Source of the DNA: Dyadobacter sp. CECT 9275
GTDB taxonomy: Bacteria > Bacteroidota > Bacteroidia > Cytophagales > Spirosomataceae
Direction: 5' to 3'
Assembly (NCBI RefSeq): GCF_907164905.1
Contig: NZ_CAJRAF010000002.1
Location: 3,472,001 to 3,536,000, forward strand
DNA length: 64,000 nucleotides
Shown here one piece after another: positions 47,343-62,345 of this stretch (its first letter is position 1; each line of letters starts with the position of its first letter). The notes under the pieces are model-generated. The model saw only the letters and a list, made by a program, of their open reading frames with translations. It was not told where the DNA came from and did not search any database. The position numbers and the translations under genes were made by a program.

Positions 47343-49004
47343 TTACTTTGCATAAACACAATAATTACTATTTTTGCGCTCCCTGACTGCAAGCCGAAGT
47401 GGTGAAATTGGTAGACATGCACGTTTCAGGGGCGTGTGGGAGTGATCCCGTGCGGGTTCGAGTCCCGCCTTCGGTACTAAGCCGAACTTTTGTGAGAAAT
47501 CACTTAAAGTTCGGCTTTTTTCTTGTCCTAAATCACTGTTTATCTGAAAGATCAGAGCTGCTGCTTCATTGATTTTTGTGGTTCGATATCCACTTTCCGA
47601 AAACACCAGTTTTTCGGGGTATATCGAACCAATGATTTCACGCTTCTGATTTGTATCTGATCTTGTGTAGACAAGGTCGATGCTTGAAAGTGCGTTCACT
47701 GCCTTATCTAACATCTTTTGAAGATTTACAGGACTGTTGACACTCGTTGCCATCTCCGTTAAATTGGCTTCCAACCGCACAAGCTTTTCCTCAATTTCTG
47801 CTTTCATCGTCCGGTAGTCTTTTGGGTCAATATCAGAAGTCAACAAGAGTTCTCTTGCCTTACCAAGTTTACTATTCAGTGCATCGATCTGGTCGAGAAC
47901 ATGTTTCTTCTCGATTTGTGAATGCTTTGTCTGCCCGTTGAATGCTTTATTTACAGCCAGTTTAAAAAGCTCTGTCACACCTTTGTGAGGTTTAAACTTT
48001 TGAAGTTCTTTTACAAACTGATCGTTAACCACGCCGCATGTATATCTTGGCCCGCAGGAGGCCACACAGTGATAATAGTGGTACCTGCCGTTTCTGCCTT
48101 TCGAAGCGCTTGCCGTTAACAGCCTATGACAATTAGGACATTTCAGAAAACCCCGCAGCGGAAACATATCATTGGATATTTCTTTCACATTAGGCCGCTG
48201 TCTCTTCTTTTTTCCGTCAATCGAATCCTGTACTTCGTAAAACAGATTCTCGGATATCAGCGCTTCATGCTGCCCTTGCGCTAACCGGCTTTCTTCATCC
48301 TTGTAACCGGGTATGAAGATCTTACCGAAATAAAGCGGATTTTCGATTGCACGCCAGAAGCAGGTTTTGCTGCATCTGAGTCCTTTACGAACCGCCTGTC
48401 TTCTGACTTCTTCTACCGAATATATACCTTGCGCCAATTCTTCAAAGGCCCATTTTAAGACGGATGCCTGCGGCTGTTGTAGTGCGATGTATTTTCTGCC
48501 GCTTTCAGTGATCTTATTTATGTAACCCACCGGAGCTACACCCATATACCTGCCTTCCTTCCTAGCCCTTCTCATGCCGTGAAACGTATTGAGTGCCCGT
48601 CGGTCATTTTCCACTTCGGGTGCAGCCAGGTAAAAGGCCAGCATCATTTTATTTTCCGGAATAGAAAGATCCAGCGGCTGCTCAATGGCCTGGGGCTCCA
48701 CGCCCAACCTTCTAAGTATACTGATCATCTGGTAGGCATCGCCCGCGTTGCTGCTGAACCTGTCCCATTTGGTAAAAAGAACCAGATCCACCTTGCCTTT
48801 TGATTTTTTCAGGTCCAGGAGCAACTGTGACCATTGAGGGCGGTTGAAGGTTTTGGCCGAATGGTCTTCATAAATCACCTTTCTAACCTCAATATGATTG
48901 ATGCCACAATACTTTCTAAGCATTTCCTCCTGTCCTCTTTGGGAGTAGCCTTTATCTGCCTGCTCGTCCGTGCTGACACGGACATATAAATCTGCCGTTT
49001 TCAT
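47343..49004 (-). CDS. Large serine recombinase whose 3' end reads antisense through tRNA-Leu
   Basis: A 553-residue site-specific recombinase. The resolvase domain begins at DLYVRVSTDEQADKG, with the catalytic serine near residue 10. The recombinase domain spans about residues 155-265, followed by a zinc ribbon (CPNCHRLL ... HYYHCVASCG) near residue 300, and a coiled-coil motif (residues 360-440, KKHVLDQIDALNSKLGKARE). After residue about 509 (KFGLVP) the frame enters tRNA-Leu antisense (KAGLEPARDHSHTPL), so the last 44 or so residues are host-derived at the integration site. It likely catalysed integration at the tRNA. A 97-residue gene lies 44 bases upstream on the same strand. Confidence 0.93.
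   Translation of the reverse strand: MKTADLYVRVSTDEQADKGYSQRGQEEMLRKYCGINHIEVRKVIYEDHSAKTFNRPQWSQLLLDLKKSKGKVDLVLFTKWDRFSSNAGDAYQMISILRRLGVEPQAIEQPLDLSIPENKMMLAFYLAAPEVENDRRALNTFHGMRRARKEGRYMGVAPVGYINKITESGRKYIALQQPQASVLKWAFEELAQGIYSVEEVRRQAVRKGLRCSKTCFWRAIENPLYFGKIFIPGYKDEESRLAQGQHEALISENLFYEVQDSIDGKKKRQRPNVKEISNDMFPLRGFLKCPNCHRLLTASASKGRNGRYHYYHCVASCGPRYTCGVVNDQFVKELQKFKPHKGVTELFKLAVNKAFNGQTKHSQIEKKHVLDQIDALNSKLGKARELLLTSDIDPKDYRTMKAEIEEKLVRLEANLTEMATSVNSPVNLQKMLDKAVNALSSIDLVYTRSDTNQKREIIGSIYPEKLVFSESGYRTTKINEAAALIFQINSDLGQEKSRTLSDFSQKFGLVPKAGLEPARDHSHTPLKRACLPISPLRLAVRERKNSNYCVYAK
47393..47476 (+). tRNA. tRNA-Leu (CAG anticodon)
   Basis: An 84-base type II tRNA. The acceptor arms GCCGAAG and CTTCGGT pair (with one terminal G-T), the anticodon arm CACGT/GCGTG encloses TTCAGGG giving anticodon CAG, a long variable arm (GGGAGTGATCCC) follows, and the T arm is GCGGGTTCGAGTCCCGC. 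The discriminator is A and CCA is not encoded. The last four bases form the start of the 105-bp direct repeat, so this is the attachment target of the island. An antisense reading frame (the recombinase tail) covers the whole gene. Confidence 0.97.
47473..47577. repeat. 105-bp direct repeat, left copy (att-like junction)
   Basis: This segment matches 54988-55092 at 101 of 105 bases. It begins with the last four tRNA-Leu bases (GGTA), contains the tRNA terminator hairpin, and on the minus strand encodes 35 codons near the recombinase C-terminus. It marks the left boundary of a 7.5-kb insertion. Confidence 0.85.
47479..47521 (+). terminator. tRNA-Leu terminator, left copy
   Basis: AAGCCGAACTTT and AAAGTTCGGCTT form a perfect 12-bp stem; the loop contains a second small stem GTGA/TCAC around GAAA, and six T follow. 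On the minus strand there is no T tract, so it should not stop recombinase transcription. Confidence 0.88.
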
Positions 49005-49048
49005 CTCAATACAGTTACATCATCAATAATTAAATAAATCAGATTTAG

Positions 49049-49342
49049 TTACAAAACATCATCCTTTAAATCTTTAAGACATTGATTTACTGCTATATTA
49101 GCCAATTTTTCCAAAAATTCCAAGATTTTCTTAGCCTGACTTTCTGTTACTTCGAGTCCTTCACGCCTTAAAACTTCCACCGCTTTTTGTGGAGATACCC
49201 TCTCTTTTTCTATCGCCTCCATCCTGCTCACCATGTTTTGGACCAACATGCCGGAAAATAATCTTTGATGGCCAGCAAGATCTTCCCGCGATACTTTCCG
49301 GAATAAAAAGAATCTAATTTCTTCTTTTTTATAATTAGACAC
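49049..49342 (-). CDS. Small helical protein in operon with the recombinase
   Basis: A 97-residue, charged, mainly helical protein (NYKKEEIRFFLFRKVSRED, then SPQKAVEVLRREGLEVTES and KILEFLEKLANIAVNQ). I do not recognise a named family; the C-terminal half could be a helix-turn-helix. It is 44 bases upstream of the recombinase and probably co-transcribed. Small basic or helical partners of serine integrases often set recombination direction, but that role here is inference from position only. Confidence 0.6.
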   Translation of the reverse strand: MSNYKKEEIRFFLFRKVSREDLAGHQRLFSGMLVQNMVSRMEAIEKERVSPQKAVEVLRREGLEVTESQAKKILEFLEKLANIAVNQCLKDLKDDVL

Positions 49343-49380
49343 GGTCTGACATTCCTAAATCAGACCGTGCTGTTTAATAA

Positions 49381-49932
49381 TCAGTCCATAAAAACATGAC
49401 CTTCGTACTGTGAATAGCCATCTAAAAATAGGTCCCTTGCATAAGCTTCGTAATCAAAATATCTTTGCAACAGCTCGGGCACGTCTGAGAGCATTCCCGT
49501 ATCTTCAATGTACTGATAGGTAAACTCCAACTCCGGATCTTTCGATCGTGAAAAATAACCTTGGTAAGCATCTTCAAATCCTTGCAGTGTTTCATCTAAA
49601 TCATATCCGTTTGAGGGCCATGATACGATCTTGGAACAGTAAATCTCAAATGCCTCCGCGCGTTCCTCACCCATTTCATCCGTCAGTTCAAAGTACTTGA
49701 ATGTGTCCTCATGCAGACTGCATTCTGAAATCAGAAAATCCGGAATATATTCCCAATCCTGGAACATTAACTCAGGCAGAAATTCATTTCGGTGATATTC
49801 ATAGCAGTCCTTGTAGAACGCTTGGCTATCAGAGTAGTCTGAGAGATCAAACCATTTACCGAAAAGTGATCCGTCGTTATACTGCCCGTAAGTTCCAACA
49901 TAAATTTTTGGAATGTTTTCAAGATTTTTCAT
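49381..49932 (-). CDS. ardA: ArdA-like antirestriction protein
   Basis: A 183-residue, strongly acidic protein (many Asp/Glu, matching DNA-mimic antirestriction proteins). It begins with the ArdA-typical PKIYVGTYGQYNDGSLFGKWFDL, and has repeated acidic YxDxDEFLPEL-like segments such as ELMFQDWEYIP and SRYFDYEAYARDLFLDGY-like C-terminal residues. ArdA proteins protect incoming DNA from type I restriction enzymes. It sits in a recently acquired element beside the recombinase, which fits. Its 5' flank contains an exceptional folded region at 49996-50125. Confidence 0.88.
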   Translation of the reverse strand: MKNLENIPKIYVGTYGQYNDGSLFGKWFDLSDYSDSQAFYKDCYEYHRNEFLPELMFQDWEYIPDFLISECSLHEDTFKYFELTDEMGEERAEAFEIYCSKIVSWPSNGYDLDETLQGFEDAYQGYFSRSKDPELEFTYQYIEDTGMLSDVPELLQRYFDYEAYARDLFLDGYSQYEGHVFMD

Positions 49933-50531: not shown

Positions 50532-50966
50532 ATGGCGGTCAAGGAAATGAGATATGAAAATGGGAGACTTTCGGGTCTTTTCATACCTATTGAAGATATA
50601 GAAGAACTTAAAGGCGACCTTAAAGGCGATTCACAATTTCTGAGTTATCTGGATGAAATTCTGTTCAAACAGCAGGAATCGGAATCGGCCTTACAGCAGC
50701 CTCTACCCAATGGTCTTTCTTTGCAGCAGACCAATGAAAGAACGGCGGAAGTAATCACAAATCTTCATAGAGAAGCCTTTTCCAAAGGAATCCCTATGTA
50801 TTACCGGGACGCCAGGGCAACTCCCCCCAAAGAATTTATCAGGGCTAACCCCGACGGTTCAGAGGATTTGGTCTCATTGGATCTTTCGACTGCTGACTAT
50901 ACCTTAATAAAACAGTTAGTGCCTAAGGGAAAAGGAAGTTGGGCGTTTGTGGTTGCGGACAGGTAA
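50532..50966 (+). CDS. Putative antitoxin partner of the zeta-like toxin
   Basis: A 144-residue soluble protein without a named family that I recognise. The N-terminal part (YENGRLSGLFIPIEDIEELKGDL) and the central helical part (TNERTAEVITNLHREAFSKG) are followed by a beta-hairpin-like segment IPMYYRDARATPPKEFIRAN and PDGSEDLVSLD. It ends 11 bases before the zeta toxin gene, in the same direction, the layout of toxin-antitoxin operons with the antitoxin first. Its function as antitoxin is inferred from position. Confidence 0.6.
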   Translation: MAVKEMRYENGRLSGLFIPIEDIEELKGDLKGDSQFLSYLDEILFKQQESESALQQPLPNGLSLQQTNERTAEVITNLHREAFSKGIPMYYRDARATPPKEFIRANPDGSEDLVSLDLSTADYTLIKQLVPKGKGSWAFVVADR

Positions 50967-50977
50967 TTTCTCTACTT

Positions 50978-51673
50978 ATGAAGCCGCAATTCTACATTCT
51001 AGGTGGTCCAAACGGAGCAGGAAAATCTACCGTAGGCCATTTACACGTTATTGCCGGTACCCATATTTTTAACGGTGACCTGATCTATGCTGCACTCCTC
51101 GAAAAATATCCTAATTACGACCCTGAGAAACTCAAGGGTGGCGTACCATCACAACTGGAAAAAGACAAGGCCGTAGCTATTTCCCAACAAAAGCATTTTG
51201 CCTTTGAAACAAATTATTCCACCGATCTGGCAAAAGAGCTCACCCAAGAGTTCAGGAGCAATGGTTATGAATCTACAATGATCTATTTTGGTATCGATGA
51301 CCTGGAAAGCTCGCTTTCCAGAGTTAAAGTGCGTGTGTCGCTCGGCGGACATGATGTCCGGTTAAAGGATATCGCCTTCAATTTTTCAGAGGGTATTGTT
51401 AGAGTCAAAAAGGATATCAGGATTTTTGATAACGTTTTGTTTGTTGACACAAGCACCCTAGGAAAAGCGTCCGTGATTGCTTCATATCGTAAAGACACAG
51501 GAGATCATCTAATTCTTCAAGAGGACGTCAATTGGTTTAACCTCAATTTCAGGGAACAGATAATAGAAATGGCTCTTCAAAAGAAAAAAGCTCTCAAAAC
51601 GCTGGAAAGGTTGCAAGCCGAAGAGGAAACATCAACCCAAAAAAAGCAAGGGAGAAAAGGGCCGAAGTTTTGA
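50978..51673 (+). CDS. Zeta-type toxin (UDP-sugar/nucleotide kinase-like P-loop protein)
   Basis: About 231 residues. The P-loop GGPNGAGKST is at residues 8-17, followed by the zeta-family FNGDLIYAALLEKYP (substrate-binding Asp) and FAFETNYSTDLAKEL segments, and a basic C-terminal tail (KKQGRKGPKF). Zeta toxins phosphorylate UDP-N-acetyl sugars or related targets and block cell-wall synthesis. The ATG at 50978 is chosen because the first conserved strand (FYILGGPNG) starts there. It is preceded by its putative antitoxin. Confidence 0.83.
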   Translation: MKPQFYILGGPNGAGKSTVGHLHVIAGTHIFNGDLIYAALLEKYPNYDPEKLKGGVPSQLEKDKAVAISQQKHFAFETNYSTDLAKELTQEFRSNGYESTMIYFGIDDLESSLSRVKVRVSLGGHDVRLKDIAFNFSEGIVRVKKDIRIFDNVLFVDTSTLGKASVIASYRKDTGDHLILQEDVNWFNLNFREQIIEMALQKKKALKTLERLQAEEETSTQKKQGRKGPKF

Positions 51674-51806: not shown

Positions 51807-52268
51807 ATGCTAATTCAAGCTGCACAAAAAGACATTTTGCTCACATACTTCGTAACTGAATGTAAACTAGGTAAATGGACTGAAAGGGGGCTAGGTGAAC
51901 TCAATGAAAGCTTGGAAGAGGTTGATGAAGAGAAAGCTATGTATTTGTATTTTGAAAGGATAGGACTAATTAATTGCAGAGACAACGAATTTAGTTTTAT
52001 GAGTGTATCCTTCAAAGTCAATGTGGAAGCCCATGACTTCTACAATCGTGGAGGTTTCTACGGACAGGAAGATCTGTTTAAAAAGAACGTCGAAAAGCTT
52101 CTTTTGGAAGTTGAAAGATTAGAAATAATTGACTCATCTGGGTATTTCGGAGAAGTTGACCACCTGATTCCGTGGCAAATTGACCACCTAATTAACTGGC
52201 GGCCGGTAGTAGAAAATGCTAGTAGAAGCGATTCAAAATTAGTAAATAAAAGTTATAATTATTCGTAG
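51807..52268 (+). pseudogene. Unknown helical protein gene broken by the IS21 element
   Basis: The frame codes for 153 residues, but only about the first 110 (up to 52138) are native. The native part is acidic and helical (LGELNESLEEVDEEKAMYL, then HDFYNRGGFYGQEDLFKKN, ending in a coiled-coil-like VEKLLLEVERLE). The last 40 or so residues (DHLIPWQIDHLIN) are translated from the IS left end, so the original C-terminus is lost. The family is unknown. No continuation is recognisable after the IS. Confidence 0.65.
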
Positions 52269-53008
52269 CTGGTTTCGAGCTCCGTTTTTCGTTTTCTTCT
52301 CATTGATTCCCCCTTTAATTCAACCCGGTGTGCATCATGTACTATACGATCTAAAATGGCATCAGCAATGGTTTTTTCTCCTATTACTTCATGCCATTTG
52401 CTAACAGGCAACTGAGAAGTAATTATCAGGGATGTTTTTCCGTGCCTGTCTTCTATGATTTCCATCAGTGCTGCCCGGCTCTGGGCATCGAACGGCTGGA
52501 TACCAAAGTCGTCCAGGATAAGAAGTTGTTGCCGTTCTATTTTTGTAATTTCTTTGATATAGGATCCATCCGCCTTGGCCATTTTGAGTTTGGCAAACAA
52601 TTTGGGAGTACTGGCATACATTACGCGGTAGCCAAGTATACATGCCTGATGACCAATCGCAGATGCTACATAGCTTTTACCGATTCCGGTACTGCCTGTG
52701 ATCAGTAGGTTTTCATTTCGGCCAATAAAGGAGCATTCTGCTAGGCGCATGATCTGATTACGGTCAATACTTCTATCAGCATGATAGTGGATATTTTCGA
52801 CCATGGCCTTATAGCGGAACCGTGCGTACAAGATCTGGCGTTCGACCCGACGGTTATTTCTGTCATCCCATTCAGCGTCAACTAGATGAGCTAAAAGCTC
52901 ATCCGCCGTGTAATCATTAGTCTTTCCACTTTCCAGGCTACTTTTAAAGGCATGGAACATGCCGTAAAATTTTAGCTTGCGTAACTTTTCCAAAGTGTTT
53001 GTGTTCAT
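52259..53008 (-). CDS. istB: IS21-family ATP-binding helper protein IstB
   Basis: A 249-residue AAA+ ATPase that assists the IstA transposase. Walker A is GSTGIGKSYVA near residue 106, Walker B LLILDDFGIQP near residue 166, with the sensor region TSLIITSQLPVSKWHEVIG and the final basic motif. It follows istA with 21 bases between and uses an ATG start. Its stop lies inside the broken plus-strand gene's frame. Confidence 0.95.
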   Translation of the reverse strand: MNTNTLEKLRKLKFYGMFHAFKSSLESGKTNDYTADELLAHLVDAEWDDRNNRRVERQILYARFRYKAMVENIHYHADRSIDRNQIMRLAECSFIGRNENLLITGSTGIGKSYVASAIGHQACILGYRVMYASTPKLFAKLKMAKADGSYIKEITKIERQQLLILDDFGIQPFDAQSRAALMEIIEDRHGKTSLIITSQLPVSKWHEVIGEKTIADAILDRIVHDAHRVELKGESMRRKRKTELETSYE

Positions 53009-53029
53009 TTTTATTAATTGTTTAAAGGA

Positions 53030-54607
53030 TTATTGATAATAGTCTTCGCCTCTGATATTATCGTGTTTGGGCATGGGTAATTCGTCTGCAAACAGGCTGT
53101 CTTCATATTGATCCATATTTTTTTCCAGTATAGTCTGGATTGTTTTATAGTTGTAGATACCATAGCTTAAAGCCCTTTGGCACGCGCTGATCAGGCGTTG
53201 TTCACCAGCTTTCTTCGCAAAAGAGAGGATACCAATACAGGAGCGGTAGGCCTGTTCGGGATGCTGTTTGCGATCCAGGATTTTAAGAATATACAACCTG
53301 ACATCTTCATGGATCGAGGAAGCCCACTCCAAGAATCGATCTGGTGTCCAGTCTGTTACGAAGCGGTGTGTACTGGCCAGATGTTCTTTATCGGTAGAAT
53401 AATTATAGGGACTTTTAAGCCTTTTATGAAGGGCGATACGTTCGTAATGATAATATGCTTCAACCACAGAATTGGAATACAACAACTTGACTTTCTTGCC
53501 GATAAACCGGTATGGGACACTATAATAGTGCTTGTCAACGCTCAGGCAGACATGTCCGTTCTTCATTACAGTGGCATGTAGCTGTTTTTTGAACTCATAA
53601 TGCAGGATCGGAAGCGGGGCCAGAGCACTGCGCTCAATTTCTTCAAACTGGAGTCTGCGACTGTAATTACGGCCCCGAAGCAGTTGGTTATTATGAGCCT
53701 CGAGAGCAATCAATATAGCTGCGTTTAACTCTGTCAGTGAGTTGTAAACCTGCTTTCTTAAAGGCGCATAAATACGGCTGTAAACGATTTTGACAGCACC
53801 TTCCACCAACGCCTTATCTCTTGGCCGGTAAGCGCGTGCAGGTAATATCGTAGTCCCATAATGATCAGCAAAATCGGCAAAGGCCTCGTTCAGCGTAGGT
53901 TCGTATTTATTGCTTTTTATAACAGCAGCTTTAAGGTTATCCGGAACAATTGCTGCCGGCACACCACCGATATAATGAAGTGCATTCTCGCAAGCTGCGA
54001 TCAGATCTTCTTTTTGCTGGCTACTGACTGCTTCCACGTAAGTGAGTTGACTCGCTCCCAGGATAGCCACAAACACTTCAACCTCAGTTAATTCACCAGT
54101 CTCTTTATCTACAATACTTAATTTAACACCTGCAAAATCGATGTACAGCTTATCGCCGGCCTTATGGTCCTGATGCATCACAGGGTTAACGCGGGCCTTC
54201 CATTTGGTCAGATGAAAGCAAAACTGGGTATAAGCAAATCCTTCCGGAAATTCCTTTTTATAGGCTTCCCAAAGCATATGACGGGTAACACCTGTCCGTT
54301 TTAATTCTTTGTCTATTTGCGGAAAACAACGTTGCAGATTCAACAATCTGTCTTGCGGTGGCTGCTGTTTAACCGTTCCGAAAAAGTCATCCAGCTCTTT
54401 ATCATTCAGGCTGTTGATCTGTTCAAAGGTAAGTCCGCTCGCATCAAAAGTGGTCATGTACTTCTTAGCGGTATTGCGGGAAACACCTGTCTGTTCCGCT
54501 ATCCAGAGCTTGCTGCGGCCCTGGCTGTACATCCGTAAAATCTGTCTTATTTTGCTCATGCTGATTGTCGAATTGGCCATACCTTTTACACGATTGGTTC
54601 GTGCCAA
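53030..54607 (-). CDS. istA: IS21-family transposase IstA
   Basis: A 525-residue DDE transposase. An N-terminal helix-turn-helix (ISMSKIRQILRMYSQGRS and QTGVSRNTAKKYM) is followed by a DDE core with aspartates in LYIDFAGVKLSIVD near residue 150 and IVPDNLKAAV near residue 215, and a glutamate in the DKALVEGAVK motif near residue 265. A C-terminal basic domain completes it. The likely functional start may be a few codons inside (MANSTISMSK). It is intact. Confidence 0.95.
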   Translation of the reverse strand: MARTNRVKGMANSTISMSKIRQILRMYSQGRSKLWIAEQTGVSRNTAKKYMTTFDASGLTFEQINSLNDKELDDFFGTVKQQPPQDRLLNLQRCFPQIDKELKRTGVTRHMLWEAYKKEFPEGFAYTQFCFHLTKWKARVNPVMHQDHKAGDKLYIDFAGVKLSIVDKETGELTEVEVFVAILGASQLTYVEAVSSQQKEDLIAACENALHYIGGVPAAIVPDNLKAAVIKSNKYEPTLNEAFADFADHYGTTILPARAYRPRDKALVEGAVKIVYSRIYAPLRKQVYNSLTELNAAILIALEAHNNQLLRGRNYSRRLQFEEIERSALAPLPILHYEFKKQLHATVMKNGHVCLSVDKHYYSVPYRFIGKKVKLLYSNSVVEAYYHYERIALHKRLKSPYNYSTDKEHLASTHRFVTDWTPDRFLEWASSIHEDVRLYILKILDRKQHPEQAYRSCIGILSFAKKAGEQRLISACQRALSYGIYNYKTIQTILEKNMDQYEDSLFADELPMPKHDNIRGEDYYQ

Positions 54608-55478: not shown

Positions 55479-56015
55479 CTACACTTGTTCTTCTACTTCT
55501 TTCTTCAAACTTAACAAAAAGGCATCATAATTAGTGCGTTCTCTAAATATTTCCCATCTTCCTGTCCAGTTGGGATACTTACCTAGTATATTACCTTTAC
55601 CATCCTTATCAGCAACAAGTGCTCTGATATCATAATGCTGTGATAAGAAGTCGTGGTACTTATTTATCCCCATCTGGTATTTCCTAGTTCTCTTCCTTGG
55701 TAAATCATTGCCATCTTTATCTTTGATAACTGTACCTGCTGCTATTAGTGTTGCATCAGGGTTTTGTGCCAAGAACTCTAAGCCTATCACTCCTGCAGTT
55801 GCAAGTATCTTCTCATCATCACCGTTCTTCGTCTCGATCCTATCGCTCCATTTCCCTCTCTTGTCCAATACAAGTAGGGCCAGATTGAATATCTGCTTAT
55901 TTTCGAAGACCCGATCCACGGACACAAGCATCGGAAAATATCCATTTTCACCTTCGCTGTAAAAAAGGTATGCATTTTCACTTTGCTGTTCGGTCTGATA
56001 CCTTTCTAACTCCAT
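55479..56015 (-). CDS. DUF6934-like protein
   Basis: A 178-residue acidic-basic mixed protein. YLFYSEGENGYFPMLVSVDR, KILATAGVIGLEFLAQNPDA, and RTRKYQMGINKYHD with a C-terminal WEIFRERTNYDAFLLSL match my memory of DUF6934 proteins from Bacteroidota (in which RTRLYRMGI is the usual form). DUF6934 genes are typically followed by a small gene, as here. A toxin-antitoxin or defence-like role is conjecture from this recurrent pairing. Confidence 0.65.
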   Translation of the reverse strand: MELERYQTEQQSENAYLFYSEGENGYFPMLVSVDRVFENKQIFNLALLVLDKRGKWSDRIETKNGDDEKILATAGVIGLEFLAQNPDATLIAAGTVIKDKDGNDLPRKRTRKYQMGINKYHDFLSQHYDIRALVADKDGKGNILGKYPNWTGRWEIFRERTNYDAFLLSLKKEVEEQV

Positions 56016-56154: not shown

Positions 56155-57522
56155 GTGATTGTGAATCGAGATAACTTCCTTCTTGGCCTTGCCGGACTTC
56201 GATTGTCTGTAAAAAAAATTGCATATTCAATAATCTGCTGCGCCTGTCTATACGTTTCAGTCACTTTACTGTCTTGCAAAGACGAACAGAGAAATTCGGC
56301 GGCAAAAGTCCGCATTGTTCAATCTGACAATGGCTATGCTATTCTGCGCAATGGGAAAGTATTCGAGATTAAGGGAGCAAGCGGAACATCAAACTTCCAA
56401 ACGCTTCATGAGGCTGGCGGGAATTGTCTTCGTGTTTGGGACACACTGCACCTTCGCCAGATTCTAGACAGTGCGTACGCGAACGATATTGCGGTCATAG
56501 CAGGCCTTCCCATCCAAAATAGTGATCAGACCGAACTTTACAATGATCCTATTAAAACTTTAAGACAATTATCTAAATTTCAGTCAGTTATTGATAGACA
56601 TAAGAATCACCCCGCGCTTTTAATGTGGTGCCTGGGTAACGAGCTGGACTTTCCCTACAAACCTTCTTACAACAGTTTTTACGCTGCATTCAACGCGATC
56701 ACAAAAATGATCCGCCGGATAGACCCTGATCATCCGATCACCACCACCGTCATGAATTTTAATAAAAAATACATTACAAACATTCAGCTCCGCTGCGACA
56801 TTGATGTGGTTTCCTTTAATATTTTCAGCAATCTAGGCCTCCTGAGAAAAGATCTCAGCGAATTTTCATGGTTTTGGAACGGCCCCTATATGTTGTTGGA
56901 ATGGGGAACCGATGGGCCCTGGCCTGGATGCCAAAGCACTGCATGGGGCGCTTTCATTGAGTACCCAAGCAAAAAGAAGGCTGACATTATCCTACATCGT
57001 TACCGACAACACATGCCGCTGGAAGACCCTCGCCTGATAGGCAACTTTATATTTTTCTGGGGGAGCAAACAAGAAACTACCCATACCTGGTTCAGCATAT
57101 TTGATGAACACGGCAGAAAGTCGGAGCCTGTTGCAATAATGCAATACATTTGGAAGAGAACCCTTCCAGACGAGCACTATCCGCAGATCCGTTATATGCT
57201 GCTCAATCACAAGGGCGCCGGCGACAATATCTTACTCAATCCAGGACAAACAATGCTACCTGAACTGGTCATGCATGACAAAGACAGCGTCATGTCCGTC
57301 AATTGGGAAATATTCAAGGAGGATTGGTATAAAGAAAATGGACAAAACAATACGCGCAAGCTTATCCCTCTTGATACGAAATTTGAGACCGACGGGAAAC
57401 TTACCACTCTGTTTAAGTCGCCTATGGAGGAAGGCCCCTACCGTATTTTTGCAAAAATATATGACTACAATGGCAACTTCGCAACCTGCAATACGCCTTT
57501 CTATGTTATGAGTGATCGATGA
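56155..57522 (+). CDS. Glycosidase-like lipoprotein (GH2/GH5-type TIM barrel) of the polysaccharide locus
   Basis: About 455 residues from GTG 56155, or 439 from TTG 56203. A lipoprotein signal (KKIAYSIICCACLYVSVTLL with lipobox LLSC) is followed by a TIM barrel like the C-terminal domain of GH2 enzymes: GGNCLRVWDTLH, then HPALLMWCLGNELDFPY with the acid/base glutamate after LGN near residue 165, and PYMLLEWGTDGPWPG with the nucleophile glutamate near residue 245. A C-terminal Ig-like region follows (PYRIFAKIYDYNGNF). It is exported and likely acts on the glycan made by the downstream synthase, overlapping it by ATGA. The substrate is unknown. Confidence 0.8.
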   Translation: MIVNRDNFLLGLAGLRLSVKKIAYSIICCACLYVSVTLLSCKDEQRNSAAKVRIVQSDNGYAILRNGKVFEIKGASGTSNFQTLHEAGGNCLRVWDTLHLRQILDSAYANDIAVIAGLPIQNSDQTELYNDPIKTLRQLSKFQSVIDRHKNHPALLMWCLGNELDFPYKPSYNSFYAAFNAITKMIRRIDPDHPITTTVMNFNKKYITNIQLRCDIDVVSFNIFSNLGLLRKDLSEFSWFWNGPYMLLEWGTDGPWPGCQSTAWGAFIEYPSKKKADIILHRYRQHMPLEDPRLIGNFIFFWGSKQETTHTWFSIFDEHGRKSEPVAIMQYIWKRTLPDEHYPQIRYMLLNHKGAGDNILLNPGQTMLPELVMHDKDSVMSVNWEIFKEDWYKENGQNNTRKLIPLDTKFETDGKLTTLFKSPMEEGPYRIFAKIYDYNGNFATCNTPFYVMSDR

Positions 57523-60452
57523 GGCACATTTCAATCACACCTCCAACAAAGAAAGAGCTTATCACACTTCGGGTGATGATCTTGATTGGATGCGTTGCAA
57601 TAGTCTTTTTTCTTTACAGTGTTCTGAACCGCGCCGTGCACGGATACGCGCCGCTCTATTGGATGCTGATGGTAACGTTCCTTTTCACCTGCCTTAAACT
57701 GCTTTACGAATGGTACCTTTATCTTTATATTACTGTTCCAGCGACTCCACCACTGACCAGCGATTTCACGGTTGACGTATTCACAACTTTCTGTGCGGGT
57801 GAGCCTTATGAGATGATCCTGGAAACACTTAAGGCAGTTAAAGCAATCACCTATCCCCATGAAACCTACCTGTGTGATGAAGCAAATGATCCCTTCCTAA
57901 AAGAGGTTTGTCATCAGCTAGGCATTCATCATATCACCAGGACTTGTAAGACAGATGCAAAAGCAGGAAACATTAATAATGCCTTAAAACAGTCAGCGGG
58001 TGAGTTATGCCTCGTTCTGGACCCGGACCATGTCCCTGCTGCCGATTTTCTAGACCACGTTGTTCCACATTTCGTCAATCCTCAAATCGGTTATGTCCAG
58101 GTTGTCCAGGCTTACAGAAACGCAGACGAAAGTCTTATCGCCAAGGGGGCAGCCCAGCAGACCTACCAATTTTACGGGCCAATGATGATGACCATGAACA
58201 AGTATGGAACCGTACAGGCTATTGGCGCCAATTGCACCTTTAGACGAACTGCCCTTGATTCAATTGGCGGGCATGCAGCAGGTCTTGCAGAAGATTTACA
58301 CACCTCTATGCGCCTTCATGCGAAAGGATGGAAGTCGGTGTATGTGCCGGAAGTTGTAGCACGCGGGCTGGTGCCGTCGACGCTTTCTGCCTATTACAAG
58401 CAACAATTGAAATGGTCCAAAGGTGTTTTCGATCTATTTGTTACGACATATCCTAAACTGTTCAGCCAGTTTACCTGGAGGCAAAAACTGCATTATGCCT
58501 TGCTTCCGATGCATTACATGTCCGGCATAATTTACCTGATTAATTTTCTGATCCCGGTTATCGCACTTTGTTTTGGAGCAAGCCCTATGCACATGGATAT
58601 CTCCGAATTTGGTCTGGCTGTTTTTCCATTAACTGCATCCATTGTATTGATCCGGCTTTTTGTCCAATGGTGGGTGATGGAAGACGAAGAACGCGGTTTT
58701 CACATAGTTGGGGGTTTACTGCTGATCGGCAGCTGGTGGATATTTATTCTTGGCTTAATTTACACAATCGTCGGGAAAAAAGTGCCTTACGTGCCCACGC
58801 CCAAAGACGCAAATGAAGCCAACAACTGGCCGCTCAATATCCCTAATCTCATTGTGCTGGTTATTTCTGCTATCGCAATAAGTTACGGATTACTCACAGA
58901 CTGGAACCCTTACAATCTGGTCATGTCCGGTTTTGCCGGACTGAATTGCCTCTTTATGTGCTTTTCGATTGCGGCAAGCCGTCAGCAGCAGTTTCGGCTC
59001 TTGAGGGCAAATCATCGCTGGCTAGATGCACTGATGGGCCGGGTACAAGTTGTAAAAGGTATCTTATGGACGTTAAGGCGCCAGCTTTATACCGGCCTGC
59101 GCAACACATCCATGCTGGTCATGCTGCTGCTGCTCGGTGTCTGGATCTATAGCGCAAAGTTTAAGTTTCTGGGAAATGAACCGGGGTTTGACAGAAATGA
59201 AATTAATAAAATGCCCAGTCAGAACCCACCTGGAGATAATCCAAATAAAGCCGAAAAGCAGTATAATCAAGTCTCAATTGACCGCGGGTCTTGTCAAATA
59301 GATTCTAGTTCTTTGACTTCATTTACAGGAGCGCATGGAATAAATTATTTAAAAGGCTCTGATTGGAAAAACGAATATCAGGCGTTTACAAAAAAAGAAC
59401 TCGTCGCAGATTTTCAAGAAATGAAAAAGATTGGCATTAACACTGTCAAGTTCTACGGCCCAAGCTTTTACGATCATAATATACTCAGCGTTGCGGGCCA
59501 GCAAGGAATGAATCTTCATTATGGATTTTGGGTACCAGATAACCTTAACTTTGCAAAGGACAAACAAAGTTTAGAAGCGTTAACCCAAAAAATATTACGA
59601 GTCATAGGCAAGAATAAAGCAAACAAGAATATCATTTCCTGGAACCTTGGAAATCCTGTCTTTCAGAATTTGATCCTGTATCATCGGCAATCGGATCTGG
59701 TTCATCAGCAGGATGCATATCTTGTTTGGCTTAAAAAGCTGATTTTGCAAATGAAAAATGCTGATCCCACACGCGAGATCACATTAGACATTGAGGTATC
59801 TGAAAAGATGCTTGCCGTCGTTGCGAGGATAAGCGCTGCCATACCAGAAATCGGATCTTATGGACTCGTATATAACAATAACACGCCCGATTTTACCATC
59901 CCGACCCACTTTCCACATTTCATCAGTTACGCCGAATTCGATGTATATAATAAACTTTCGGATGATTCTGCCGGTATATTTATTTCAAATTGGCAGGATA
60001 AACATACTTATGAGCGTGTAAGTTTTGATGGGGTCAAAGACCAGGCTGGCCGCAAAAAAAATGTATTTTTAAAGCTTGCCGCCAAATGGAAAGGTGGCGA
60101 AGAACCAATGGAATCACCAAAAATCAAAATACTGAGACCCGCTGCCTCGACCGTTGCCGGCTCAGTTCTTGACTATCATGCAGTAATAAAAAGGGATGAA
60201 AATTGGTCGTTGGCAAAAAACATTAAGACCAATCTAAAATTTGAATGGAAGCTGGTGCAAATGGATGATTTCTTCAACCTCATTTCCTCGAAGGACGTGG
60301 GTAACGGCACTGATCTTAGCCTGCGAATACCCAATGATCCGCTCACTTACAGGCTTTACTTGTTTGTGCTCAATAATGACCTGGTGATAGATATTATTGA
60401 TTCCAGCCTCAACACACCGCTTACCCTGCCTGCCAAATCATCGGGCCGTTGA
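57519..60452 (+). CDS. Processive GT2 polysaccharide synthase fused to a degenerate periplasmic glycosidase-like domain
   Basis: A 977-residue protein. Two membrane helices (residues 20-75) precede a cellulose-synthase-like GT2 domain: first aspartate in VDVFTTFCAGE and CDEAND, DxD-type LDPDHVP near residue 168, AEDLHTSMRLHAKGW (the ED motif) near residue 258, and the QQLKWSKG motif (QxxKW) near residue 300. At least six further helices follow up to residue 545, then a periplasmic TIM-barrel-like domain (residues about 590-850) with IISWNLGNPVFQ, where the acid/base Glu after LGN is Pro, and an Ig-like tail. Starts at ATGA overlapping the lipoprotein. No PilZ domain or BcsB-like partner is present, so this is not a classical cellulose synthase. 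Confidence 0.85.
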   Translation: MRHISITPPTKKELITLRVMILIGCVAIVFFLYSVLNRAVHGYAPLYWMLMVTFLFTCLKLLYEWYLYLYITVPATPPLTSDFTVDVFTTFCAGEPYEMILETLKAVKAITYPHETYLCDEANDPFLKEVCHQLGIHHITRTCKTDAKAGNINNALKQSAGELCLVLDPDHVPAADFLDHVVPHFVNPQIGYVQVVQAYRNADESLIAKGAAQQTYQFYGPMMMTMNKYGTVQAIGANCTFRRTALDSIGGHAAGLAEDLHTSMRLHAKGWKSVYVPEVVARGLVPSTLSAYYKQQLKWSKGVFDLFVTTYPKLFSQFTWRQKLHYALLPMHYMSGIIYLINFLIPVIALCFGASPMHMDISEFGLAVFPLTASIVLIRLFVQWWVMEDEERGFHIVGGLLLIGSWWIFILGLIYTIVGKKVPYVPTPKDANEANNWPLNIPNLIVLVISAIAISYGLLTDWNPYNLVMSGFAGLNCLFMCFSIAASRQQQFRLLRANHRWLDALMGRVQVVKGILWTLRRQLYTGLRNTSMLVMLLLLGVWIYSAKFKFLGNEPGFDRNEINKMPSQNPPGDNPNKAEKQYNQVSIDRGSCQIDSSSLTSFTGAHGINYLKGSDWKNEYQAFTKKELVADFQEMKKIGINTVKFYGPSFYDHNILSVAGQQGMNLHYGFWVPDNLNFAKDKQSLEALTQKILRVIGKNKANKNIISWNLGNPVFQNLILYHRQSDLVHQQDAYLVWLKKLILQMKNADPTREITLDIEVSEKMLAVVARISAAIPEIGSYGLVYNNNTPDFTIPTHFPHFISYAEFDVYNKLSDDSAGIFISNWQDKHTYERVSFDGVKDQAGRKKNVFLKLAAKWKGGEEPMESPKIKILRPAASTVAGSVLDYHAVIKRDENWSLAKNIKTNLKFEWKLVQMDDFFNLISSKDVGNGTDLSLRIPNDPLTYRLYLFVLNNDLVIDIIDSSLNTPLTLPAKSSGR

Positions 60453-62123
60453 TAAGGTTTTTACAAAATGCTGAAAGGTTTGTTTGCTCACACTCCAGTC
60501 TGGAGCTGGAATATCACCCCAGACTTTGGGGTTATCGACTAGATTGAAATAGCTGACCCCTTTGATCTCGGGGGCATTACCAATGATTTTGGCCGCTTTT
60601 TCCAACCATCTTTTCTGGAAATCTTCCGGGCCCTTCACACCAAATTCAGTGATGAAGATTGGCTTCTTTACCAGCCGCATCCGGTAACGTTTGCGATTGT
60701 AAACGGTCTCGAAAGACTCCTGTTGCTCAGGATCTGTAATATTTTTATCAGGCAAACCGTATATGGCGATGCTGATGTAATCCACAACATCATCACCGGG
60801 CCACCATTCAATTGCGCCCCGGTCGCCAGCCGGCCCCCACACTTTTTTAATGCGCCTATTTTTTGACCCGTTAAAATGCATAAAATACCGAAAGGCTTTA
60901 ATATAGAGTACCGGATCCTGGCTCTGCCACGCATACCTGTGGATCGGGATCTCCATTTCGTGTGCAAAACGCAGGTAAACGGTGCGTTTACTGGTTGAAA
61001 GCACACGGTAGATCTCAGCAAACTCAGCATCATAAATGCCGTTAATAACATTGCTAAGCACATTTGAATCTTTTTTGACTGCTGCATTATGCCACGGCTC
61101 TACGCTCACAATTACGTCGTGCTGGCGAGAAACGATTGCATTGAAATCCCTTTCGAACTGCCCGTTCTGCACATTAATCAGATCAACAAAAACATGTTCT
61201 GCACCAATCAGTCCGGAATTGACCAGCAATTCTTTTGGATCATACACACCGACCAGCGGTGCTCCCCTCTGAGTAACCTTTGAAGTGCTTGCAGTGTCTT
61301 GTGTCTGATACAGAAGCTTAGCATTTAGCCGCGTACCTGCAGCAGCTTTTGCCAATGCCGCTTTAAGATCAGCCTCACTGCCGGTTCCTGCATTTATTAC
61401 AAGCACCGGCTTTCCAAACATCCGCATTCGCTGTATTTTCCGTCTGACATTCTCCTCAAGGTCCTTGACATCCGGGAAGGCAGTCGCTGCCGATTCTGAC
61501 TTACCGTTGATCGTCACGCTTATGTAGTCCACAAAAGCAGGTCCAGGCCAATATTCATCTGAACCAGGGTAACCCGCTGGCCCCCACACAAATTTTACCG
61601 CCGGAAAAACGGACTTAGCTAATTTACAAAAGTGATTAAATGCTTCAATGTAGTCATTTGGCGCCTGGTATTGCCAGGGATGCAGCTTCACAGGAACTTC
61701 CATCTCTGGATTCCAGCGCAAATAGATAGTACCAGACCTCTTCGCCAATGCCAGGCAAAACGCCTCGATCTTTGCGTCATAATCCCCTTCACGCACCTCT
61801 TCAAGCAAATTCGGTACCGAAGCAAAGTCGGTTCCCGGCATTAAAATAGTAATGATCAGATGCTCTGCTTGCGGGATTTGTGCAATCAATTTGTTGATTG
61901 ACCCCGCATCAGCGTGCTTATCAAGTTTCAAAAAGTAGTGTGAGAATGAATACGTCATTTTCTGCTCATTGAGCTCGAAAGTGCCAATGACAGGTTCATG
62001 AGATGTTGAGTCCAGAGAATCGCGGGATATTATGGAAGACGATTTCAATTTTTGAATGAAGAGAACCAGCAAAAATGTCGAAATAACCCCTGCTGAAATC
62101 ATTAAAATCCTGGAGATTTTCAT
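60438..62123 (-). CDS. Tandem GH26-like (mannanase-type) protein with a dead first domain
   Basis: About 561 residues from the ATG at 62123, with an N-terminal membrane anchor (ISRILMISAGVISTFLLVLF). Two GH26-like domains follow. The second (residues about 300-561) has the acid/base pattern YLRFAHEMEIPIHRYAW and nucleophile IFITEFGVKG. The first (residues about 40-295) has YLRWNPEMEVPVKLHPW, but the nucleophile position reads VLVINAGTGS without Glu, so it is probably a binding domain. GH26 enzymes cut beta-mannans or beta-1,3-glucans; specificity is unknown. It converges on the GT2 synthase with 15 bases of overlap. Confidence 0.8.
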   Translation of the reverse strand: MKISRILMISAGVISTFLLVLFIQKLKSSSIISRDSLDSTSHEPVIGTFELNEQKMTYSFSHYFLKLDKHADAGSINKLIAQIPQAEHLIITILMPGTDFASVPNLLEEVREGDYDAKIEAFCLALAKRSGTIYLRWNPEMEVPVKLHPWQYQAPNDYIEAFNHFCKLAKSVFPAVKFVWGPAGYPGSDEYWPGPAFVDYISVTINGKSESAATAFPDVKDLEENVRRKIQRMRMFGKPVLVINAGTGSEADLKAALAKAAAGTRLNAKLLYQTQDTASTSKVTQRGAPLVGVYDPKELLVNSGLIGAEHVFVDLINVQNGQFERDFNAIVSRQHDVIVSVEPWHNAAVKKDSNVLSNVINGIYDAEFAEIYRVLSTSKRTVYLRFAHEMEIPIHRYAWQSQDPVLYIKAFRYFMHFNGSKNRRIKKVWGPAGDRGAIEWWPGDDVVDYISIAIYGLPDKNITDPEQQESFETVYNRKRYRMRLVKKPIFITEFGVKGPEDFQKRWLEKAAKIIGNAPEIKGVSYFNLVDNPKVWGDIPAPDWSVSKQTFQHFVKTLSTAR

Positions 62124-62345
62124 ACTGTGACCCAACGTTTGTTACAGAAGCCAATTTAATGTTTTTAAAGTCGGATCGAATTATATGAGTGCCATTTAAT
62201 CAATAAAAACCTGGCAAGGGGAAAGCAGCATCCGATATTGCCTTAACATTCGGCTCCCCGCAACAATTAAAGATTGAAAAGTAACCGATTGATCCGTTCG
62301 AGCGGTTTTTTTTACTAGCTTTCGGACAACATTAATCCCACCAGT

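Follow-up and report, generated by a model that had tools for sequence, protein, structure and literature searches.

A candidate beta-glucan synthesis-and-remodelling cassette of GT2, GH158 and GH26 proteins in Dyadobacter and related Bacteroidota

The window analysed here is a stretch of 64,000 nucleotides from the 7.23 Mb genome of Dyadobacter sp. CECT 9275, and Dyadobacter is also the origin of the closest named protein relatives. Three predicted open reading frames (ORFs), A, B and C, are packed at 56155-62135 of the window, and their existence and coordinates were verified. A and B, both on the plus strand, overlap by 4 bases, while B and C are convergent and share 15 bases at their ends. 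The genes, with their predicted products, domains and catalytic positions, are as follows.

56155-57522, plus strand: gene A (455 residues, GTG start), GH158-family glycoside hydrolase with a lipoprotein-like N-terminus
56641-56643 and 56899-56901, plus strand: acid/base E163 and nucleophile E249 of A, the clan GH-A glutamates, in GNE and LEWG
57519-60452, plus strand: gene B (977 residues), BcsA-like processive GT2 plus an additional membrane helix and, at the C-terminus, a GH158-fold domain
58401-58415, plus strand: QQLKW motif of B, at the QxxRW position
59316-60428, plus strand: C-terminal GH158-fold domain of B, from fold search, both catalytic glutamates replaced
59655-59657 and 59928-59930, plus strand: Pro713 and Tyr804 of B, at the places of the catalytic glutamates
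60438-62123 (ATG start, 561 residues) or to 62135 (TTG start, 565 residues), minus strand: gene C, membrane-anchored tandem GH26
60441-61289, minus strand: second GH26 domain of C, by fold and both catalytic motifs
60957-60959 and 60645-60647, minus strand: E389 and E493, catalytic residues of C numbered from the ATG
61292-62020 (limits approximate), minus strand: first GH26-like domain of C, with Asn at the nucleophile place (61392-61394)

The best structure matches to A were GH158 enzymes, namely PDB 9oro with E 5.4e-54 (residues 50-450) and PDB 6pal, the endo-laminarinase BuGH158 of Bacteroides uniformis, with E 5.2e-44 (residues 54-452); no publication behind the 9oro structures was found in the open-access literature. 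BuGH158 relies on E137 and E220 for catalysis, and its activity was abolished when either one was mutated, as given in excerpts of PMC7157763. A shares family, fold and catalytic pair with BuGH158 and with GH158(Pro) of the 9oro series. Its membership of GH158 rests on end-to-end homology with a characterised member together with both catalytic glutamates, which are present in 74/74 aligned rows (the window and 73 standalone relatives). GH2 was rejected as the family of A, since GH2_C (36.2 bits) is the nearest Pfam profile only and the structure-sequence matches put GH158 first; on sequence grounds GH158 suits A better than the GH2-like label, which is explained by the clan, and A is a predicted beta-1,3-glucanase-family enzyme with an intact catalytic pair. 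An earlier note, made from the letters of this stretch, had described a glycosidase-like lipoprotein with both catalytic glutamates, and E163 and E249 were confirmed, as was a hydrophobic N-terminus ending in LLSC, judged by eye to be lipobox-like. A conserved surface-export signal on A was rejected, as the CKDEQ that follows the lipobox in the window is not kept in the relatives compared. A search with A returned only itself in its own genome, and it is thus single-copy.

The GT2 domains of B exceeded the Pfam cut-offs, in line with the processive synthase of the earlier note, while its motif departs from QxxRW; QQ[LIV]KW was found in 109/109 B sequences, and not the Q(Q/R)xRW of CelA/BcsA. 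B was rejected as a cellulose synthase (CelA/BcsA), scoring 167.7 bits against a curated equivalog cut-off of 699.1 bits, and as a poly-N-acetylglucosamine (PNAG) or NodC synthase, for which scores were far under the curated cut-offs. Neither PilZ nor GH17 was found in B by Pfam scan. The earlier note had also held that BcsB, PilZ and an export secretin were lacking, which for PilZ extended to the whole genome (no match, in a search that matched in 5/14 control genomes); for BcsB and export channels, neither of which was searched for genome-wide, the absence covers the locus. The C-terminal region of B does have a hydrolase-like fold, but its assignment to GH2 did not survive, as the fold ranking gives GH158 first, with the GH2 barrel tied to within 1 Z unit on a shorter stretch and Pfam GH2_C at 20.4 bits, just under the 21-bit cut-off. 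B shares this fold with BuGH158 and the 9oro series. Unlike BuGH158, it lacks the catalytic pair, and both glutamates are kept in only 10/53 fused homologues.

C consists of one N-terminal hydrophobic helix and two GH26-like halves, much as the earlier note's anchored tandem protein, except that the first half has no nucleophile. Pfam GH26 remained below its cut-off on C (16.4 vs 20.2 bits). Fold search gave a clear match of the second half to GH26 structures, and the first half, which this search covered poorly, resembles the second in sequence. Both catalytic motifs of the second domain were present in 19/19 C sequences and the nucleophile glutamate of the first in 0/19. The best fold matches of the second domain were structures of the lichenase CtLic26 (GH26, PDB 2cip and 2bv9), about 4 Z units above the next enzyme type, alike in fold and catalytic motifs; identity to CtLic26 is 21%, and C differs by its membrane anchor and by the inactive half that precedes this domain. 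This lead of the lichenase structures, and the end-to-end alignment of A with beta-1,3-glucanases, both speak against the view that B makes another beta-linked polymer (cellulose, mannan or an aminosugar polymer) and that the GH26 and GH158 partners have shifted in specificity, which we regard as unlikely.

Presence of the three genes was counted in 99 related genomes, the window's own included, and these are not independent events. B was present in 28/99, and A in 29/99, comprising 28/28 genomes with B and 1/71 without it (G088). Full-length C was found in 21/28 genomes with B and 0/71 without it; a further match, the 22nd, fell on the GH26 region of B (G070) and so was not counted as C. Co-occurrence of the trio, which the earlier note had set as a test that could refute the proposal, was thus borne out. 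In 29 loci around B from 27 other genomes, A lay near B in every case (in pieces in L059, one gene off in L053) and C adjoined B in 18, and C was elsewhere than beside B in G001 and G007, adjoining a second A in the latter. A larger cassette was rejected by ORF clustering of these loci with the window, in which a single A/B/C cluster was present in 30/30, the next clusters reached at most 11/30, and none of those listed (at least 3 loci) contains the window.

A contig scan with the GT2 part of B gave 384 relatives, of which the best 80 loci, all of named Bacteroidota, were analysed. A standalone GH158 was found near the synthase in 74/80 (73 by rule and L086 by tblastn), at a distance of at most 428 bp in 68/73 and of 2.3-3.0 kb in five, on the same strand as the synthase in 19/73 and on the opposite strand in 54/73. 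In L111 and L112 the synthase itself is fused to an intact GH158, L098 retains a fragment, in L100 the contig ends after about 400 bases on the side that carries A in its relatives, and L065 and L102 showed none by rule or tblastn. An even sample of the phylum contained the synthase in 16/395 genomes (own included) and 13/171 genera. Over 41 loci the distances among A and among B sequences were correlated (r 0.90, 0/2000 permutations as high), with species relatedness still contained in this value. At loci of unexpected kinship, A and B had matching neighbours in L136, L052 and L140, and not in L130. That the neighbours are associated by chance or shared history only could draw on the kinship of the compared genomes, some of the 80 loci repeating species of the 99-genome set (e.g. 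L063, L072, L137), but is highly improbable, given that A is single-copy in its genome yet adjacent, that the pairing persists while orientation varies, and that the fusions described below already oppose it.

Three further loci were noted for their arrangement. Two A-B units stand in tandem in Chitinophaga japonensis (L128, 8597-18841). In Fibrisoma limi (L070) the A-B pair lies on plasmid pFLIM01, and the pair can therefore sit on a mobile replicon. A record titled Flavobacterium sp. SUN052 (L071) holds a Spirosoma-like A-B pair with 75% identity to the query, which is either a transfer or a mislabelled record.

Among the 80 loci, whose architecture classes were assigned by rule, GT2 stood alone in 27 (L100-L102 among them being cut or broken, the rest mostly Pontibacter), and the other classes were GT2-GH26 in 24, GT2-GH26-GH158-like in 26 and GT2-GH158-like in 2, with one unread (L086). 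GH26 exceeded the Pfam cut-off within two of the five long homologues scanned. These single proteins with GT2, GH26 and GH158, together with the joint recurrence, agree with the earlier idea that the three proteins act on one glycan. Glutamate was found at both catalytic places in 18/63 fused GH26 rows. Chitinophagaceae rows (n=15) kept both GH26 glutamates in 13 and the GH158 acid/base in 0, metagenome-assembled genome (MAG) rows (n=9) kept both GH158 glutamates in 9 and the GH26 acid/base in 0, and Pontibacter vulgaris (L114) kept all four.

A quick GT2 tree, with architecture labels by length only and one 'GT2 alone' row (L101) cut by a contig end, placed the window type within a group with triple fusions (SH-aLRT 98). 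This nesting makes the loss of an internal GH26 likely. In a quick GH158 tree, which joins long branches and of which only this grouping was used, all 43 standalone rows were set apart from the others by a branch of support 100, and the fused rows were not resolved to one origin.

Processive synthases that have a cognate glycosidase are known, and this cassette departs from them in its partner families, in the decay of domains and in its QQxKW motif. The GH17-GT2 fusions named as a comparison in the earlier note proved apt. The pseudomonad 'Orphan' and NdvB proteins, in the sections seen of PMC10237404, similarly combine a BcsA-like GT2 with a periplasmic TIM-barrel glycosidase domain, as an orphan synthase without Bcs partners. 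There, however, GH17 is N-terminal and the hosts are pseudomonads, whereas the Bacteroidota have GH158 and GH26, in part decayed, either at the C-terminus or as separate proteins. BcsA-BcsZ and the clostridial CcsA-CcsZ likewise pair a processive GT2 with a cognate hydrolase gene (PMC7710045, in part), but the present cassette has no PilZ match, lies far under the CelA cut-off and has GH158/GH26 in place of GH8/GH5. BgsA of Sinorhizobium meliloti and RiGT2 of Romboutsia ilealis are also BcsA-like GT2 proteins, possibly with the same type of product; according to excerpts of PMC10374906, RiGT2 has QRDRW and PilZ, while the B family has QQxKW and no PilZ, a comparison made by description and not by sequence. 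No paper in the open-access literature was found to describe GH158 as a fusion or pairing partner of a GT2. There the word GH158 occurs in 24 papers, two of which also contain GT2, namely PMC11005184, where the excerpts give GH158 as one entry in a family list, and PMC11431748.

From the observed gene set, its recurrence, the fusions, the state of the catalytic residues and the folds, we consider it probable that the cassette is a membrane-bound beta-glucan synthesis-and-remodelling system whose product most likely contains beta-1,3 linkages. We infer the sugar, the linkage, the topology, the direction of flow and the final place of the product as follows. B would polymerise an activated sugar, most likely UDP-glucose, at the cytoplasmic side, and the chain would cross the inner membrane via B's own channel, as suggested by homology to BcsA. 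It would then emerge next to the GH158-fold domain of B, which, being catalytically dead, probably holds or guides it. As this domain lacks both catalytic glutamates, any cutting would have to come from lipoprotein A and from the inner-membrane-anchored C, whose second GH26 is predicted to be active and whose first is inactive, and these may cut or transglycosylate the chain. A and the second GH26 of C belong to or resemble families whose substrates are beta-1,3- and mixed-linkage beta-glucans, which argues for a beta-1,3-containing product, most likely an all-1,3 or a mixed 1,3;1,4 beta-glucan. In exopolysaccharide synthase operons hydrolases are highly conserved, and the specificity of one hydrolase was used to infer its polymer (PMC7710045, in the part seen).

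A periplasmic glucan and an exopolysaccharide are about as likely as each other as the product. GH17 and GH26 are retaining enzymes of the clan GH-A type, which counts towards a tentative alternative with the same synthase and linkage and a different product and place, in which A and C are mainly transglycosylases that keep beta-glucans of the osmoregulated type short or close them, perhaps into rings, in the periplasm and without export. GH158 is of the same retaining type (excerpts of PMC7157763), and such a mode was proposed for the pseudomonad proteins, with the GT2 as a beta-1,3-glucan maker and the periplasmic GH17 cutting and cyclising (PMC10237404, in part). It is further consistent with the membrane anchor of C and with the 30 loci examined by ORF clustering, in which no export gene recurred near the cassette, but the lipoprotein-like A could sit on the cell surface.

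Several observations weigh against the proposed synthesis-and-remodelling system. The counted genomes are related, and the A-B distance correlation includes that kinship. Fused GH26 domains of G049, G051, G055 and G071 lack the catalytic residues, the nucleophile included, and no C was found there; C was thus rejected as a universal GH26 supplier, and not every such system needs GH26 activity. Laminarin is the preferred substrate of BuGH158, which acts only weakly on mixed-linkage glucan (PMC7157763, from excerpts), and GH158 alone is therefore no argument for mixed linkage. Finally, in 7/29 loci, all Dyadobacter-type (L036, L038, L039, L040, L041, L044 and L045), TonB-receptor and SusD-like genes stand beyond a GntR-type regulator adjoining A, as identified by Pfam on L036 and by ORF cluster on the others. 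These genes, and the occurrence of GH158 in laminarin-use loci such as that of BuGH158 (PMC7157763, in part), would fit a catabolic role in which beta-glucans of foreign origin are broken down by A and C, while the adjacent B serves another function. Such a role seems quite improbable, as SusC/SusD-type neighbours were seen neither in the stretch of the window examined nor, by ORF clustering, in the remaining 22 loci, relatives carry GH26 and GH158 domains within the synthase polypeptide itself, A and C were not found without B except for A in G088, and C bears a membrane anchor.

The genes to the left of the cassette were also inspected.

47343-49932: large serine recombinase and ArdA antirestriction protein
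50532-51673: Zeta-toxin-like kinase (Pfam 24.2 vs cut-off 22.3 bits)
52259-54607: IS21-type element (IstB-like ATPase and rve transposase, Pfam), about 1.5 kb upstream of the cassette
55479-56015: DUF6934 protein gene, divergent from gene A

With the recombinase and ArdA there, this region looks mobile. A small gene without Pfam match lies upstream of the kinase gene and overlaps it, and the two are a possible toxin-antitoxin pair.

Taken across the phylum, the chances are about even that there is a Bacteroidota-wide family of QQxKW synthases making beta-1,3 or mixed-linkage glucan, which would have captured GH26 and GH158 partners, fused or adjacent, with an active GH158 nearly everywhere and the other captured domains decayed to non-catalytic guides. 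The cassette offers a candidate beta-glucan synthase with cognate enzymes for a large group of Bacteroidota from soil and fresh water, and the question of its product is thereby open to direct experiment. It parallels the GH17-GT2 arrangement of pseudomonads with different enzyme families, and the glycosidase domains that nature offers in fused, decayed and separate form make approachable the role of a dead glycosidase at the mouth of a polymer channel.
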